This document shows, one piece after another, positions 2,319 through 41,893 of a stretch of 45,984 bases of DNA. The position numbers and the translations under genes were made by a program. The stretch is from assembly GCA_024280015.1 (NCBI GenBank), contig JAJRQY010000134.1, forward strand, positions 1 through 45,984, given 5' to 3'. Each line of letters starts with the position of its first letter. Position 1 is the stretch's first letter. The DNA comes from Actinomycetes bacterium. GTDB taxonomy: Bacteria; Actinomycetota; Acidimicrobiia; Acidimicrobiales; SZUA-35. Under the pieces are notes generated by a model. It did not search any database, was not told the DNA's origin, and saw only the letters and a list, made by a program, of their open reading frames with translations.

Positions 2319-3140
2319 ATGGAAGTCATCCGAGTCATTCCTTGCCTGGATGTTGACAACGGTCGGGTGGTCAAGGGGGTCAACTTCGTCGATATCCGAG
2401 ACGCCGGCGATCCGGTGGAGTTGGCGGCCCGATATGACCGTGAGGGAGCCGATGAGCTGATCTTCCTGGACATCACCGCCTCATCCGATGATCGAGAAAC
2501 CACTGTCGCAATGGCCGAAGCGGTGGCCGAGAAGGTCTTCATCCCCTTCACCATTGGGGGCGGGATCCGCAGCGTAGAAGACGCTAGACGGATGTTGCGG
2601 GCCGGAGCCGACAAGGTCTCGGTGAACTCCGCCGCGGTTAAGCGTCCGGAGTTGGTGGCCGAAATTGCTGAGGAGTTCGGTTCGCAATGTTGCGTAGTTG
2701 CCATCGACGTCCGGGCAATCGATGAACATCAAGCCGATGACGAAGGATCCAAAGCTGCGGACCAGGACGGATCACCCGTCATCAAGTCGGGCTTTGAGGT
2801 CTATGTCCGGGGTGGCCGGGACGCCACCGGGATTGATGCCGTCGAGTTCGCCAAGAAAGTGGTTGCCCTTGGTGCGGGGGAGATTCTTCTGACCTCTATG
2901 AACCGTGACGGAACCCGAGTGGGGTTCGACCTGCCGCTGACTCGAGCCATCAGTGACGCGGTCAATGTGCCAGTCATTGCCTCGGGCGGGGTTGGTTCCG
3001 TCGACGATCTGGCGCCGGGGGTGCTGGAGGGTGGGGCCTCGGCCGTCTTGGCGGCGAGCATCTTCCACTTTGGAGAGTCCACCATTGCTGATGCCAAAGA
3101 TGCGCTCCAAAAAGCCGGGCTTACCGTTCGTCCCGCTTGA
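2319..3140 (+). CDS. hisF: Imidazole glycerol phosphate synthase, cyclase subunit
   Basis: HisF barrel, 273 residues, which uses HisH-derived ammonia to form imidazole glycerol phosphate and AICAR. Signatures: [18 protein letters not shown] with the catalytic Asp, [35 protein letters not shown] with the second catalytic Asp, and [11 protein letters not shown]. The protein is about 15-20 residues longer than usual because of an acidic, low-complexity insertion at about residues 130-150 ([18 protein letters not shown]) between the strand carrying VAIDVRA and the [13 protein letters not shown] motif. The insertion lies in a surface loop of the barrel and is unlikely to remove activity. It ends the his operon; the next gene is on the other strand. 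Confidence 0.97.
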
Positions 3141-3171
3141 ACTTCCGGTTTTGCTAGCCGCTTGCTCCTGA

Positions 3172-3882
3172 TCAAGTCCTCCGAGGGCCAGTTAGTGCGC
3201 GTAAAGCGAACTGGTTGATGACGCTGAGCTTGCCGTTCAAGAAGTGATCGGCTCCGGGCACCGTCGTGATGGTGGTGTTTTGCCAGGTGCTGGTTCGGTT
3301 GGCGGCCGTCTCTGGGTCACAGAATTGGTCATGTTCGGGGATGACAAGGTGGATGGGGCGAGGATCGTTGCCTGCGGCCATCTGTGCCGGGTCAAGGACG
3401 CCCAGCGGAGGAGCAACACAGAACCATTGGGAGATGGCCGAATCGATCACGGTGAGCGAAACGTCTGCTCCAAAGGACCAGCCAAGAAGGCTGAGTGTCA
3501 AGTCGGGATGCAAGCCAGCCAGATGAGCGACCGCTCCAGACACATCGGCCTTCTCGCCCTCGCCGTACTCATGGCAACCATCGGATCCAGTCACACCCCG
3601 AAAGTTGAAGCGCAGGCAGGCGAACCCTTCTTCTCCAAGCGAATGGAACAGACTGTTGATGTCTGACGAGAACATATTGCCTCCGTGCAGCGGATGGGGA
3701 TGGCAGAGCACGACGCAGCCAACCGGATCCGGAGGAGTTAACAATTCGGCCCGGAGGATCAGCCCGTCGGGGGTTCTCAGGGCAAACCGTTCGGGTTCGA
3801 GCGAATCCGTTGGCGTGGCTGGTGATTTGGGCTGAATTGGGTCTTGACCGGCTGGCTCCGGGTTCGTTGCGTCTGATGGCAT
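3172..3882 (-). CDS. Alpha/beta hydrolase (dienelactone hydrolase-like)
   Basis: A 236-residue cytoplasmic alpha/beta-hydrolase fold protein of unknown substrate. The early motif VVLCHPHPLHGGNM is the oxyanion-hole region of the short KANL3/Tex30 or dienelactone-hydrolase-like group, FNFRGVTGSDG follows, and the nucleophile elbow is GWSFGAD (Ser about 136). A late EHDQFCDPE and PGADHFLNGKL supply the likely Asp and His of the triad. The first ~25 residues are Pro/Ser/Thr rich and probably unstructured. It is divergent from the GroES-like gene; the ATG lies 7 nt after a TAGCGT hexamer (3895-3890 on this strand), so a leaderless mRNA is likely. The 3' end converges on hisF. Confidence 0.85.
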   Translation of the reverse strand: MPSDATNPEPAGQDPIQPKSPATPTDSLEPERFALRTPDGLILRAELLTPPDPVGCVVLCHPHPLHGGNMFSSDINSLFHSLGEEGFACLRFNFRGVTGSDGCHEYGEGEKADVSGAVAHLAGLHPDLTLSLLGWSFGADVSLTVIDSAISQWFCVAPPLGVLDPAQMAAGNDPRPIHLVIPEHDQFCDPETAANRTSTWQNTTITTVPGADHFLNGKLSVINQFALRALTGPRRT

Positions 3883-3889
3883 CTCTCAG

Positions 3890-3899
3890 ACGCTAGCGT
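3890..3899. promoter_or_regulatory. Palindromic bidirectional -10 element
   Basis: ACGCTAGCGT is a perfect 10-bp palindrome in the 24-nt gap between two divergent genes. Read forward it contains TAGCGT (3894-3899) exactly 7 nt before the GTG at 3907; read in reverse it contains TAGCGT (3895-3890) exactly 7 nt before the ATG at 3882. TAnnnT at that spacing is the expected arrangement for a leaderless transcript starting at the first base of the codon. The two -10 hexamers overlap, so the two promoters should be mutually exclusive. No convincing -35 was found on either side. Confidence 0.7.
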
Positions 3900-3906
3900 T
3901 TCGGCG

Positions 3907-4251
3907 GTGACAGACCGAGACAATGGCGCCACATCAGACAAACTCCCCATCAAGATGCTCAATGACCGCATCCTGGTGAAGATCGAGGGCCCTGATGGCG
4001 AACGAAAGTCCAATGGAGGAATCCTCATCCCAGCAACCGCCCAGGTCGGCAAACGCCTGACTTGGGCCACCGTGGTTGCTATTGGTTCCAACGTGCGATC
4101 CATGGAGCTCAAAGACCGGGTCCTCTACAATCCTGAGGACCGATACGAGGTCGAGGTTGGAGGAGCCGACTACATCATCTTGCGTGAGCGTGACATCCAC
4201 GCCGTCGCCGCTCAGCGTCTGGACGACTCCCATACGGGCCTGTATCTCTGA
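3907..4251 (+). CDS. GroES-like co-chaperonin (orphan, divergent)
   Basis: Cpn10/GroES family protein of 114 residues; ordinary GroES has about 95-100. The core LPIKMLNDRILVKIEGPDGERKSNGGILIPATA resembles the GroES opening, with the mobile loop region (SNGGILIP), followed by GxVVAIGSNV-like WATVVAIGSNVRSMELKDRVLYNPEDRYEVEVGGADYIILRERDIHAV, matching the GroES C-terminal half. An extra tail follows the last strand, AAQRLDDSHTGLYL. No groEL is adjacent, so it is likely a second, specialised copy. The GTG start is chosen because it lies 7 nt after the TAGCGT hexamer and gives a leaderless message. Confidence 0.85.
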   Translation: MTDRDNGATSDKLPIKMLNDRILVKIEGPDGERKSNGGILIPATAQVGKRLTWATVVAIGSNVRSMELKDRVLYNPEDRYEVEVGGADYIILRERDIHAVAAQRLDDSHTGLYL

Positions 4252-4261
4252 AAGGCGTCTG

Positions 4262-5722
4262 CTAGGTCGGATCACCGTCGAGGAGGGGGTCGCCTGCCGA
4301 GTGAGTTGCGGCGTCGTGTGGCAAGTTGCTTCGTCCGGCACGCAGATAGCCATAGGGCGTGACGAAGCCGAAGTTCGATACCCGCGAGGTGTACACATCG
4401 GCGTAGCGCTCGACTTGGCGAGCAAACAGGCTCTTGTCGATTCCGGCTCGCATCAGGGGCCCCCAAGTAGTGTTCCCGAGCTTGCCTGCCGCTCCAGCAA
4501 TTGGCCCGATCTTGTCATCAAGGGCAACGACCTGGCGGCGCACCTCGGTGATTGACTGGTCAATGGTCTTGTCGCCACTGCGTTGGCGAGCCATGCGTAG
4601 CTGGGAGAGCTCGTCCTCTTTCTTGCCCTTGCTAACCATGAGCGATGACAAGGCTTCTTCTTGTTCGGCGAACAGGGCCGACTCTCGAATCTCGTCTTCG
4701 AGTTCTCGAATGATCAGCGCGGTACGCCAACGCAAGGTCGACTTGGAGACATGAACGTCGCCGAACAGATGATCACCGACATAGAGGATGTCTCCACCGG
4801 ACAAGTTGAAGCTCTGTTCAACCGCCGCCGCATTGCCGCCAAAGTAGACAGCACCTTCTTTCAGCTGACCGAAATGGGGTTGCAGCAGCCCGGCCTTCTC
4901 ATCGACAACCCGGTAGAAGGGGTTCTGATCCTCGAAAAAGGATGGCTTGTTGGCCGAAACAATGACCAGGTCAAACAAGTCACGCCACGACTCGCCCTGG
5001 GCTAGGTCCGGGGCCATGGCGTAGGTCATCATCTCGGAGGTGTAGACCCAGTCTGAGTTGGTGATGAGGAAGGTCTTTCGTCCAGCGGCTCGTTGATCCC
5101 GCAGGGTTTGGGCCACCAGCGGATCACGTTCAACGAAGCGGCCGGGATCGCGCTGGATTTCGGCCTTGAGATCACCCTGCCAATGGGATTGGCCAAGGAC
5201 CTCATCCACCAGACGGTAGAGGCCGTCATAGCCCATGATCGTTGGCCGGTCCTCAACCTCTAAGGATCCCTCGTCCAGTCGATCAACTAGCTGAGCCAGC
5301 AGACTTTCTTGGGAGAGAGAAAACATGGTGTTGGTGAAGCGCCAGCGTTCTTCGGACAGGTTGATGAAGGTTCCGGAGTAGGCCTGACGGACCTCCCCGT
5401 AGCTGAGGGTGCGGGTGCCGTGGTGGGCACGAATGATGTAGCCAAAGCGGGTGGCCTTGACCAGATTGCCAAGCTCCATGTCAAAGACGAGGCCTTGGAT
5501 GCGGTTGGCTGGGTCAAATTCCAAACCGTCGACCGGGAAACCTCGCCCGCTCAAGAGCTCCCGGGTCCGGTCAAATGCGGCTTTCTCCCACTCCTTGATG
5601 TCGTAGTGGACCAGGGTGTAGTCCATGTCATAGCCAATGGCCCTCAGCGAGCGGAGATTGAGGGTGCGATTGGCGAAGACTCGGCGCTCGGGGGTGGCAG
5701 CCGGAAAAGGGGAGGGTTCCAT
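4262..5722 (-). CDS. HAD superfamily 5'-nucleotidase (cN-II-like)
   Basis: 486-residue HAD-IG family 5'-nucleotidase (the bacterial group related to eukaryotic cytosolic purine nucleotidase cN-II). HAD motif I is GYDMDYTLVHYD (nucleophile Asp about residue 32, acid/base Asp34); motif II is FLITNSDWVYT; the late motif GGDILYVGDHLFGDV contains the acidic metal ligands. A charged, probably helical segment near residues 350-410 is typical of this group. It likely removes phosphate from nucleoside monophosphates in the cytoplasm; substrate is not predictable. It ends 10 nt from the convergent GroES-like gene, and no partner gene is evident. Confidence 0.88.
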   Translation of the reverse strand: MEPSPFPAATPERRVFANRTLNLRSLRAIGYDMDYTLVHYDIKEWEKAAFDRTRELLSGRGFPVDGLEFDPANRIQGLVFDMELGNLVKATRFGYIIRAHHGTRTLSYGEVRQAYSGTFINLSEERWRFTNTMFSLSQESLLAQLVDRLDEGSLEVEDRPTIMGYDGLYRLVDEVLGQSHWQGDLKAEIQRDPGRFVERDPLVAQTLRDQRAAGRKTFLITNSDWVYTSEMMTYAMAPDLAQGESWRDLFDLVIVSANKPSFFEDQNPFYRVVDEKAGLLQPHFGQLKEGAVYFGGNAAAVEQSFNLSGGDILYVGDHLFGDVHVSKSTLRWRTALIIRELEDEIRESALFAEQEEALSSLMVSKGKKEDELSQLRMARQRSGDKTIDQSITEVRRQVVALDDKIGPIAGAAGKLGNTTWGPLMRAGIDKSLFARQVERYADVYTSRVSNFGFVTPYGYLRAGRSNLPHDAATHSAGDPLLDGDPT

Positions 5723-39410: not shown

Positions 39411-40353
39411 CTTTCTCAAAGTGTTTGATTCGTTTGGCCTGCAGGCCTTTGTTGTCCTGCTCTTTGCTGGAGTTGGTCTGGCGATCTACTCCGTCCTCGC
39501 CCAGATGGACGACAAGGCTGGCCTTCGGGATGCCCTACGTTCGTTGGATGACTATGAGGTTGAGAGTGTCCGAGATCAGGAGCTGCTTGTTCCCCTGAAG
39601 ACCCGGGTCTTTTCGCCTGTTGTTGATCTCTTCAGTCGCTTTGGTTCGAAATTCAACCCTCCGGACTTTGTTGAGGGCATCAAGAAGAAGCACGTCCGAG
39701 CTGGCATCTACTCGCCAGATCGTGTTGAGCGGTTCTTGGCTATGCGCATCCTTGGTTTCATGTTCATGCCCCTATGGGTCTTGATCATGCTGACTATCAA
39801 CCCACTCGGTGTCCACGGGAAGACCCGCTTGTTCACGATGGGTCTCGGAGTGGTGATTGGAGCAATTGGGCCAGCTAGCCAGTTGACAAAGAGGGTCGAG
39901 GCTCGTCAGAAGGCAATCCAGCGTGCCCTACCTGACGTGATGGACTTGCTGGTGATCTCGGTGGAAGCTGGGCTTGGTTTCGAACAAGCCTTGGATCGGG
40001 TCATCCAGAATGTTCCCGGTGAGTTGTCTGATGAGTTCTCTCGAGTTCTTGGTGAGTCCAGGGCCGGAGCATCTCGATCTGATGCTCTTCGAGCAATGGA
40101 TGATCGCTGTGATACTCCGGAGGTTCGCTCCTTTGTTCTGGCCATGATCCAGGCTGACACCTTTGGTGTCAGCATCGGTCGTGTCCTGCGGTCTCAGTCG
40201 GATGAGCTTCGAGTGAAGCGTCGCCAGAAGGCCCAGGAGCAAGCCCAGAAGGCGCCAGTAAAGATGCTCATTCCGATGGTCTTCTGCATCTTCCCGGCCC
40301 TGTTCATTGTGGTCATTGGGCCTGCGGGCATCAATATCTCCCAAGCGTTCTAG
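39403..40353 (+). CDS. tadC: Tad pilus inner-membrane platform protein TadC
   Basis: 316 residues with an N-terminal membrane helix (LQAFVVLLFAGVGLAIYSVLA), a pair of helices around 120-160, the T2SSF domain (ALPDVMDLLVISVEAGLGFEQALDRVIQNVPGELSDEF, about 175) and a final helix pair (MLIPMVFCIFPALFIVVIGPAGI). It forms the platform with TadB that couples TadA to pilin extraction. It begins inside the end of tadB in another frame, so it is translationally coupled. Confidence 0.94.
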   Translation: MFDFLKVFDSFGLQAFVVLLFAGVGLAIYSVLAQMDDKAGLRDALRSLDDYEVESVRDQELLVPLKTRVFSPVVDLFSRFGSKFNPPDFVEGIKKKHVRAGIYSPDRVERFLAMRILGFMFMPLWVLIMLTINPLGVHGKTRLFTMGLGVVIGAIGPASQLTKRVEARQKAIQRALPDVMDLLVISVEAGLGFEQALDRVIQNVPGELSDEFSRVLGESRAGASRSDALRAMDDRCDTPEVRSFVLAMIQADTFGVSIGRVLRSQSDELRVKRRQKAQEQAQKAPVKMLIPMVFCIFPALFIVVIGPAGINISQAF

Positions 40354-40387
40354 CGAGCGCACCCATGTTCTGCCGCCGGGGGGCGAT

Positions 40388-41893
40388 ATGACGTCGACTG
40401 TCGTGTGGGCTGAGGATATGGAGGCCGAGAACAATCAGAGTCCGGGTGGTGACACTCCCAGGCTTGGGCCGACCCTAGACCTTGCCACCGGCTGGCTGAT
40501 GGCCCTGCTTGGCATGTTCCTCGGGTCTCGCCCAATCCGGGACAATAGCTTTCTCACCCATCTGGCCACTGGTGACCTGAGCCGGACGCAGGGACGAATT
40601 CCCTTAGCGGACCCTTACTCCTACACGGGCGGTGGCGCGGACTGGACCGTGCAAAGCTGGTTCGCAAGCATGGTCTACAGCTTCCTGGCCGACATGGCCG
40701 GAGTCGTGTCGATTCAGATCTTCAATGGTGTGCTCGTTGGCTTGGTCATGCTGATGCTCTGGAAGCTGACGGACTCGGCTCGCCCCTTGCTGGCTAGGGT
40801 TCTGATTCTGGTTCCGGTCATGGTGATTGGTGATGGCCAATGGTCTCCGCGTCCGCTCCTCTTCGGGCTCTTGGGTTTTGTGGTATTGCTACAAGTCCTG
40901 CAAGAGCAGCGGTCGGTCTACTGGTTGATCCCTGTCATGTGGCTCTGGGTCAACTCCCATGGATCCTTCCCCATCGCCTTTGTGCTCATCGGAGCCTTCG
41001 GGCTTGGTCGAATGATCGACCAACGGACCAGTTTCGAGAAAAAGTGGGAGCTGCCTCAACCGGAAATGCGGGTGCTCTGGTGGACCCTGCTAGGTCTCGG
41101 CCTTTCGATGATCAATCCACTAGGCCCCAGGTTGCTAGTCTTCCCGCTCCGTCTACTAACTAATCAAGAGGCGCTGGAAGGTGTCTCCGAATGGGCTTCG
41201 CCGGACTTTGATTCTCTGGCCGAAAGGTCGTTTCTTGCCCTGATCATTGGCTTGCTTGTTATCTCTCGTTTGGGGGCCCGCTGGCGTCTGGTTGTCCCCG
41301 GTATTCTCTTCGCCGTTTCGGGTCTTTTGGCCACGCGCAACCTGAGCTTGGCCTCGATTGTGCTGCTGGTTGCCATTGCTCCCTCCCTCCAGTTCAAGGG
41401 TAGTTTGCGTGGTCACGAGCAAGGCTTTCTCCCTCGGGCCCTGCTCGGCCTGGTTGTCGCGGGGGCGGTGCTCGGATCAGTCATGGTTCGGCAGAACGAG
41501 ACGCTTTCGTTGGCCCTGTATCCGGTCGAAGAGATCGATTGGCTCCAAGAGCGCGGCCTCATCGCCGAACCCGATGTCAATATTGTTCAGCGGGACTATG
41601 TCGGCAACTACATGGACTACCGGTTTGGATCCGAGGCCCGCGTCTTCATGGACGACCGTTTCGACTTCTTCCCTCAGCAAGTCTTGGATGATCATCGGAT
41701 TCTTATTCGAGGTGGAGACTTCGCCGAGGTGCTTGAACGCTACGACGCCAACGTGATTCTCTGGCAGAACGACGACGGCTTTGCCGCCTGGCTGGCGGAA
41801 GCTGATGCTTGGGACATTGCTTATGAAGGCGAGAATTGGCTAATTGCTCTCCCTGCAACCAGTCCCGATGTGATGCAAGAGCAAGCGGGCTAG
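40388..41893 (+). CDS. Polytopic membrane protein, GT-C glycosyltransferase-like
   Basis: 501 residues with about ten hydrophobic helices and a soluble C-terminal domain of about 115 residues. The early block GRIPLADPYSYTGGGADWTVQSWFASMVYSFLAD follows the pattern of uncharacterised family-39-like (GT-C) glycosyltransferases (G-R-I-P-x-x-D-P-Y-S-Y then W...W). An RDxxFLTHLATGDL segment just before it may hold the catalytic acidic residue. The ATG at 40388 is preceded by a GGGGGCG stretch; a longer frame from 40307 overlaps tadC and is rejected. It follows tadC by 34 nt, so sugar transfer to pilin is possible but not shown. Confidence 0.7.
   Translation: MTSTVVWAEDMEAENNQSPGGDTPRLGPTLDLATGWLMALLGMFLGSRPIRDNSFLTHLATGDLSRTQGRIPLADPYSYTGGGADWTVQSWFASMVYSFLADMAGVVSIQIFNGVLVGLVMLMLWKLTDSARPLLARVLILVPVMVIGDGQWSPRPLLFGLLGFVVLLQVLQEQRSVYWLIPVMWLWVNSHGSFPIAFVLIGAFGLGRMIDQRTSFEKKWELPQPEMRVLWWTLLGLGLSMINPLGPRLLVFPLRLLTNQEALEGVSEWASPDFDSLAERSFLALIIGLLVISRLGARWRLVVPGILFAVSGLLATRNLSLASIVLLVAIAPSLQFKGSLRGHEQGFLPRALLGLVVAGAVLGSVMVRQNETLSLALYPVEEIDWLQERGLIAEPDVNIVQRDYVGNYMDYRFGSEARVFMDDRFDFFPQQVLDDHRILIRGGDFAEVLERYDANVILWQNDDGFAAWLAEADAWDIAYEGENWLIALPATSPDVMQEQAG

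Follow-up and report, generated by a model that had tools for sequence, protein, structure and literature searches.

A predicted bidirectional promoter core shared by divergent hydrolase and GroES-like genes in Acidimicrobiales

The 10-mer ACGCTAGCGT, at positions 3890-3899 of the 45,984-nucleotide stretch of DNA analysed here (the window), is very probably a bidirectional promoter core of the sigma-70 type, in which two -10 boxes of the form TANNNT have a central TA in common and both mRNAs are leaderless. The geometry of the site, the spacing signal of leaderless genes in the same genome, and the way in which the second box tracks the hydrolase gene are documented by sequence and its comparison among relatives. 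The site adds a further member to an already known class of bidirectional promoters; it is not a proven switch.

The core lies between two divergent genes. On the plus strand (3907..4251), an orphan gene encodes a GroES-like (Cpn10) protein of 114 amino acids (Pfam Cpn10, 66.6 bits) with a predicted leaderless GUG start; no ATG, GTG, or TTG codon other than GTG 3907 lies between the stop codon upstream and the conserved domain. On the minus strand (3172..3882), a gene for an alpha/beta hydrolase of 236 amino acids, with weak matches to Hydrolase_4 and Peptidase_S15, has a predicted leaderless AUG start. ATG 3882 was the first start listed for this open reading frame (ORF), and a check that covered upstream starts found that no earlier one is possible, with an in-frame TGA two codons before.

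The GroES-like gene had been described beforehand as an orphan, and this is borne out: higher-scoring groES and groEL matches adjoin each other on another contig (C29), and the GroES-like protein has 32% identity with the other GroES of this genome. A further, divergent match to the GroEL family was found on contig C72 of the same genome, G000, at 40102-41622 (131 bits, compared with 261.6 bits on C29); the orphan GroES-like protein may have its partner in this GroEL-family protein. Across 61 genomes, a GroES-like match is present in 58, the window's own genome included and one match (G045) being weak, and is absent from three. Hydrolase matches are found in 39 of the 61, five of them weak.

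Read directly, positions 3880-3909 are CAT CTCTCAG ACGCTAGCGT TTCGGCG GTG. The 10-mer is identical to its own reverse complement, which confirms the exact palindrome of the preliminary description, and the same description was correct that TAGCGT stands 7 nt ahead of both ATG 3882 (minus) and GTG 3907 (plus), codons separated by the 24 nt of positions 3883-3906. The plus-strand TAGCGT (3894-3899) is the predicted -10 box of the GroES-like gene, and the minus-strand TAGCGT (3895-3890) that of the hydrolase gene; both assignments, like that of the core as two overlapping boxes of the form ANNNTANNNT, draw on the sequence and on relatives. The boxes lie on opposite strands and overlap reciprocally at the TA of positions 3894-3895, a dinucleotide read from the sequence here and shared by definition in the 40 sharing loci described below.

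By eye, there is no GGAGG-like Shine-Dalgarno sequence at the usual spacing before either start (GAGAG abuts the minus ATG). A search of 3700-4100 for a TTGACA/TATAAT promoter gave no match, a search of 3000-4600 for Rfam elements gave none either, and the two scans revealed no activator or regulator site. ACGCTAGCGT occurs once in the window, where shuffled sequences lead one to expect 0.03 copies. The full arrangement CAT-N7-ACGCTAGCGT-N7-GTG is present as a single copy in the 4.80 Mb genome, of which the window is contig C166, and its reversed control is absent.

Do the two boxes resemble the promoters of other genes in this genome? In a sample of 998,258 bases from 61 stretches, window included, TANNNT stands 6, 7, or 8 nt before a possible ATG or GTG start in 142 of 713 called genes; at internal ATG and GTG codons the rate is 0.02-0.15% per spacing. 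Candidate ATG starts carry the box at 6, 7, and 8 nt in 52, 25, and 21 of 1006 cases, and candidate GTG starts in 24, 17, and 4 of 758. The third base of the box is mostly G (64, 48, and 48% at the three spacings). The window's boxes, at 7 nt on both sides, fit the 6-8 nt peak, although they stand one nucleotide further off than the commonest spacing, 6 nt, a point that counts against the promoter reading. TAGCGT is an ordinary variant, accounting for 15 of 428 box-and-start combinations before ORFs of at least 100 codons in about 1.94 Mb. The base that completes the hydrolase box, an A at position -4, is found in only 16 of 143 leaderless-type sites of this genome (11%) and is no part of the generic leaderless motif.

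A regulon marked by TASCGT was considered and rejected, as the 21 TASCGT box-and-start combinations in about 1.94 Mb precede ORFs that appear mixed by eye. As a separate observation, of the 93 GroES-like loci that have a box, 66 have TASCGT, compared with those 21 of 428 combinations in the window's genome, and the same form of the box is found in many GroES-like loci without the hydrolase as well.

The comparison with relatives covered 105 loci, window included: 57 in a first set and 48 in a second. An element was counted as shared when it has the form ANNNTANNNT with a common central TA and a start codon at a distance of 6-9 nt on either side. A divergent hydrolase is present in 58 of the 105 loci (in one, L025, it is inferred at a contig end), and 40 of these 58 have the shared element; by these criteria, 18 loci with both genes do not. 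The first set consists of the GroES-like loci from the 61 genomes, with G045 left out for its weak Cpn10 match. Profile search placed the hydrolase divergently in 28 of them, and L025, whose contig ends just inside the hydrolase gene, brings this to 29 of 57. The element is shared in 17 of the 29 (16 by script and L012 by hand), or in 16 of 28 without L025. By group codes, the 17 sharing genomes belong to nine genera and four families. The second set, which is independent of the formation of the idea, was taken from the best 80 of 365 candidates in named genomes, mostly uncultured Acidimicrobiales or Acidimicrobiia; 48 were new and 32 repeated earlier loci. Here the hydrolase is divergent in 29 of 48 loci and 23 of these 29 share the element. 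The element is also present at L246, from Acidimicrobiia bacterium EGI L10123, which may be a cultured isolate.

The box of the GroES-like gene is widespread: 47 of the 57 first-set loci and 46 of the 48 second-set loci have TANNNT at 6-9 nt upstream of one or other in-frame start. A hydrolase box was found by script in 23 of the 29 hydrolase loci of the first set, L012 being added by hand. Across the 17 shared loci of that set, the flanking spacers drift in sequence and length and the 10-mer is near-invariant, with the core ACGSTASCGT in 16 (the exception is L045). Sharing varies among close relatives: within genus code g8, L018 and L019 do not share the element and L025, L026, and L030 do, and none of the nine hydrolase loci of genus code g10 shares it. 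In g10, GroES-like ORFs with a long and variable stretch before the Cpn10 domain were noted at L004, L010, L017, L020, L021, and L024.

The predicted second box and the hydrolase gene tend to occur together. In the first set, A at -4 is found in 19 of 23 loci with both the hydrolase and a GroES box, compared with 6 of 24 with the box only. In the second set, the figures are 24 of 27 with hydrolase and box and 1 of 19 without the hydrolase, the single case being L247, where no hydrolase was found. The Fisher p values of 1e-4 and 8e-9 overstate independence, the loci being related and some nearly identical, and are indicative only. At L018, L019, and L034, which have both genes with the two boxes apart, position -4 is C, C, and G. 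Six strong hydrolase matches away from any GroES-like gene were read (one of the genomes, G043, has no such gene); in two of them TANNNT precedes the start by 6 nt, position -4 being C in one and T in the other, and the remaining four have no leaderless box. On a tree of the GroES-like protein (100 columns), the shared state needs nine changes, and with 11 of 54 inner branches starred the tree is too weakly resolved for gains and losses to be counted. The earlier proposal of two overlapping divergent promoters of leaderless type is supported, as far as sequences can speak to it, by the spacing signal of the genome and by conservation in relatives.

Does selection act on the palindrome or on the two boxes? 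The preliminary description had treated the palindrome itself as the functional unit, and this is not supported. Perfect palindromes make up 21 of the 40 shared elements, and the other 19, though not palindromic, retain both TANNNT boxes. Of the 40, 55% have the same third base in both boxes, compared with 49% if independent (Fisher p 0.46). The rate of palindromes is about that of an independent choice of one base per box and, thus, selection, if any, would see two TANNNT boxes; a palindrome would arise whenever both happen to carry the same third base. In this comparison, palindromy appears incidental to two overlapping promoters, with no operator-like dyad. Loss of symmetry in relatives that keep both genes had been named in advance as a finding that would speak against the proposal. 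Such loss was found; it counts against the dyad and leaves the overlap of promoters unaffected.

Three other explanations of the site need to be weighed. In one, a dimeric regulator binds ACGCTAGCGT as an operator that controls both genes, and the promoters are elsewhere or coincidental. The outer arms ACG...CGT are kept in 16 of the 17 shared loci of the first set, as those of a dyad would be. However, dyad symmetry is not conserved as a unit in relatives, with 21 palindromes in 40, about the number given by independent choice, and on this ground a palindromic operator was rejected. Moreover, where the hydrolase is missing, the box of the GroES-like gene keeps TANNNT and mostly has no A at -4 (the 6 of 24 and 1 of 19 above), and the start codons lie 6-9 nt away on both sides, a spacing that also marks many unrelated starts. 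An operator is therefore highly improbable. That a random palindrome merely happens to lie between two genes is a negligible prospect: short palindromes are common, and roughly one shared element in two is a palindrome, as independent third bases predict, but the 0.03 copies of the 10-mer expected in the window and the retention of the geometry in 40 of 58 two-gene loci stand against it. A third explanation is that only one promoter direction is real, or that transcription starts upstream, within the opposite gene, and gives mRNAs with leaders. The six of 29 hydrolase loci in which the script found no GroES box, and the four of six stand-alone hydrolases without a box, would suit this explanation. 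It is nevertheless very unlikely, since four family codes retain the two boxes together, loci without the hydrolase mostly lack the base that completes its box, and neither start has a Shine-Dalgarno-like sequence nor the region 3700-4100 a consensus promoter.

The preliminary description had also presented the site as an unusually compact device. The layout recurs, and the claim is not supported. The gene caller missed the window's hydrolase and, for this reason, counts of divergent pairs at a shared TA rest on ORF length instead. In 1,688,219 bases not chosen for matches, 44 divergent ORF pairs of leaderless type fall in range; exact sharing of the TA is found in four of the 44, and every other offset in at most two. 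Excluded from this count are the window and also the stretches L166 and L173-L182, which were chosen for pattern matches on their contigs. In about 1.94 Mb there are six further pairs of long ORFs with a shared TA, two of them from stretches chosen for pattern matches, and that of the window is the seventh. The genome's positional peak at the shared TA is modest. Spacing controls also contain such pairs (two of three at 12-15 nt, one of one at 16-19 nt, and none of one at 0-3 nt), because sharing the TA costs one extra base, and the peak is therefore not taken as proof of selection. Over the 61 genomes, the pattern CAT-N6-8-ANNNTANNNT-N6-8-RTG is matched 568 times forward and 521 times in reverse, with 261 and 272 for the reversed control; these are raw pattern matches and not verified gene pairs, and ATG-to-ATG cases are counted on both strands. 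The pattern exceeds its own control in 51 of the 61 genomes, equals it in two, and falls below it in eight.

Several other intergenic sites of G000 came to light in this survey. At L075 (contig C18, 14139-14175), a divergent pair of leaderless type is 36 bp apart, and both boxes lie inside a near-perfect inverted repeat that extends over nearly all of the gap, as would be seen if an operator overlay the two promoters. Near-perfect inverted repeats that run from one possible start codon to that on the opposite strand, with ANNNTANNNT in the middle, are found at 14184-14211 of contig C142 (L181) and 9302-9331 of contig C43 (L115); both are outside the set of long-ORF pairs. At L107 (contig C15, 15230-15250), the boxes of a divergent pair of leaderless type 20 bp apart overlap at an offset of -5, and this pair resembles the 18-bp class of bidirectional promoters.

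How would the core work as a bidirectional promoter? Transcription, its start sites, the sigma factor, steric exclusion, and basal strength are what we infer. An RNA polymerase of the housekeeping type would engage the core in either orientation, each using its own TANNNT -10 box. Starts are predicted at the start codon, or about one base before it, on each side (3882 on the minus strand and 3907 on the plus strand); starts at the codons would make both mRNAs leaderless. It is likely that the two orientations exclude each other sterically, so that the site would hold one polymerase at a time. No -35 element is recognisable; basal firing is therefore probably low whichever way the core is read, and interference would become important only under strong activation of one side.

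It had further been proposed that the two directions fire exclusively, as a switch. On this reading, which is a claim added to that of a bidirectional promoter and whose odds overlap with it, polymerase competition makes the expression of the hydrolase and of the GroES-like protein mutually exclusive, and the layout is kept for this reason. In its favour, the boxes have base pairs in common, so that both are not expected to be bound at once, and 40 of the 58 loci with both genes retain the layout. In Escherichia coli, substantial activation of one side of a bidirectional promoter could repress the other, but basal activity was too low for competition in all five promoters tested (PMC12825309). 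Those low basal activities speak against a switch, as do the 18 of 58 two-gene loci that manage without sharing and the lack of any activator or regulator site in the Rfam and consensus-promoter scans. In addition, a shared box is the cheapest way to fit two promoters into 24 nt. Exclusive firing is therefore not supported, and a switch of this kind is unlikely. Unlikely, too, is a more specific form, a protein-free see-saw in which activating either gene shuts off the other through polymerase occupancy alone and the core is kept across Acidimicrobiales for that reason. If it were true, the two leaderless mRNAs would reduce the entire regulatory unit to 24 bp.

What makes the bidirectional promoter worth recording is a -10 element whose predicted second box goes with the second gene across a bacterial order. 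Because of this association, the site offers comparative evidence that such a promoter can be maintained by selection and need not be a by-product of symmetry. Through leaderless transcription, an entire divergent regulatory region could contract to 24 bp. No new regulatory principle is established by this site alone.

Among known systems, the EcoRV restriction-modification genes are alike in that their divergent core promoters overlap and polymerase cannot bind both at once; they differ in having a dedicated regulator, the C protein, of which no counterpart is known here (PMC5333194). In Mycobacterium tuberculosis, leaderless promoters have a TANNNT -10 element, no conserved -35 element, and a start at the codon, which may be GTG as well as ATG (PMC3898074). 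The window's promoters are alike in the TANNNT box, in having no recognisable -35 element, in the predicted start at the codon, and in the use of both GTG and ATG. A figure legend of the same report calls closely juxtaposed divergent promoters common in M. tuberculosis, but these are neighbouring divergent starts, some of them leaderless, and not, in the portion of the report concerned, two leaderless genes on one -10 core (PMC3898074). Among the open-licence literature matches listed, no paper was noticed that deals, in Acidimicrobiia, with a bidirectional promoter whose two mRNAs are leaderless.

The closest likeness is to the bidirectional promoters with a shared -10 element described by Warman, Grainger, and colleagues, in which -10 boxes on opposite strands have base pairs in common, as they do here, and a single short sequence can thereby initiate RNA in either direction (PMC12825309, PMC10268837). 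That class is defined by divergent starts 7-25 bp apart (PMC10268837); a start-site distance of 18 bp is the commonest, and 10 and 23 bp are also common, with small variations (PMC12825309). ANNNTANNNT with spacers of 6 nt gives 23, whereas the spacers of 7 nt in the window give a predicted distance of 25 bp if both RNAs begin at the codon, the upper limit of the 7-25 bp range (PMC10268837). The window's site also differs from that class in that its starts are predicted and its transcripts predicted to be leaderless, in that the intergenic stretch consists entirely of the core with its two spacers, and in that the evidence for it is comparative and comes from Acidimicrobiales.
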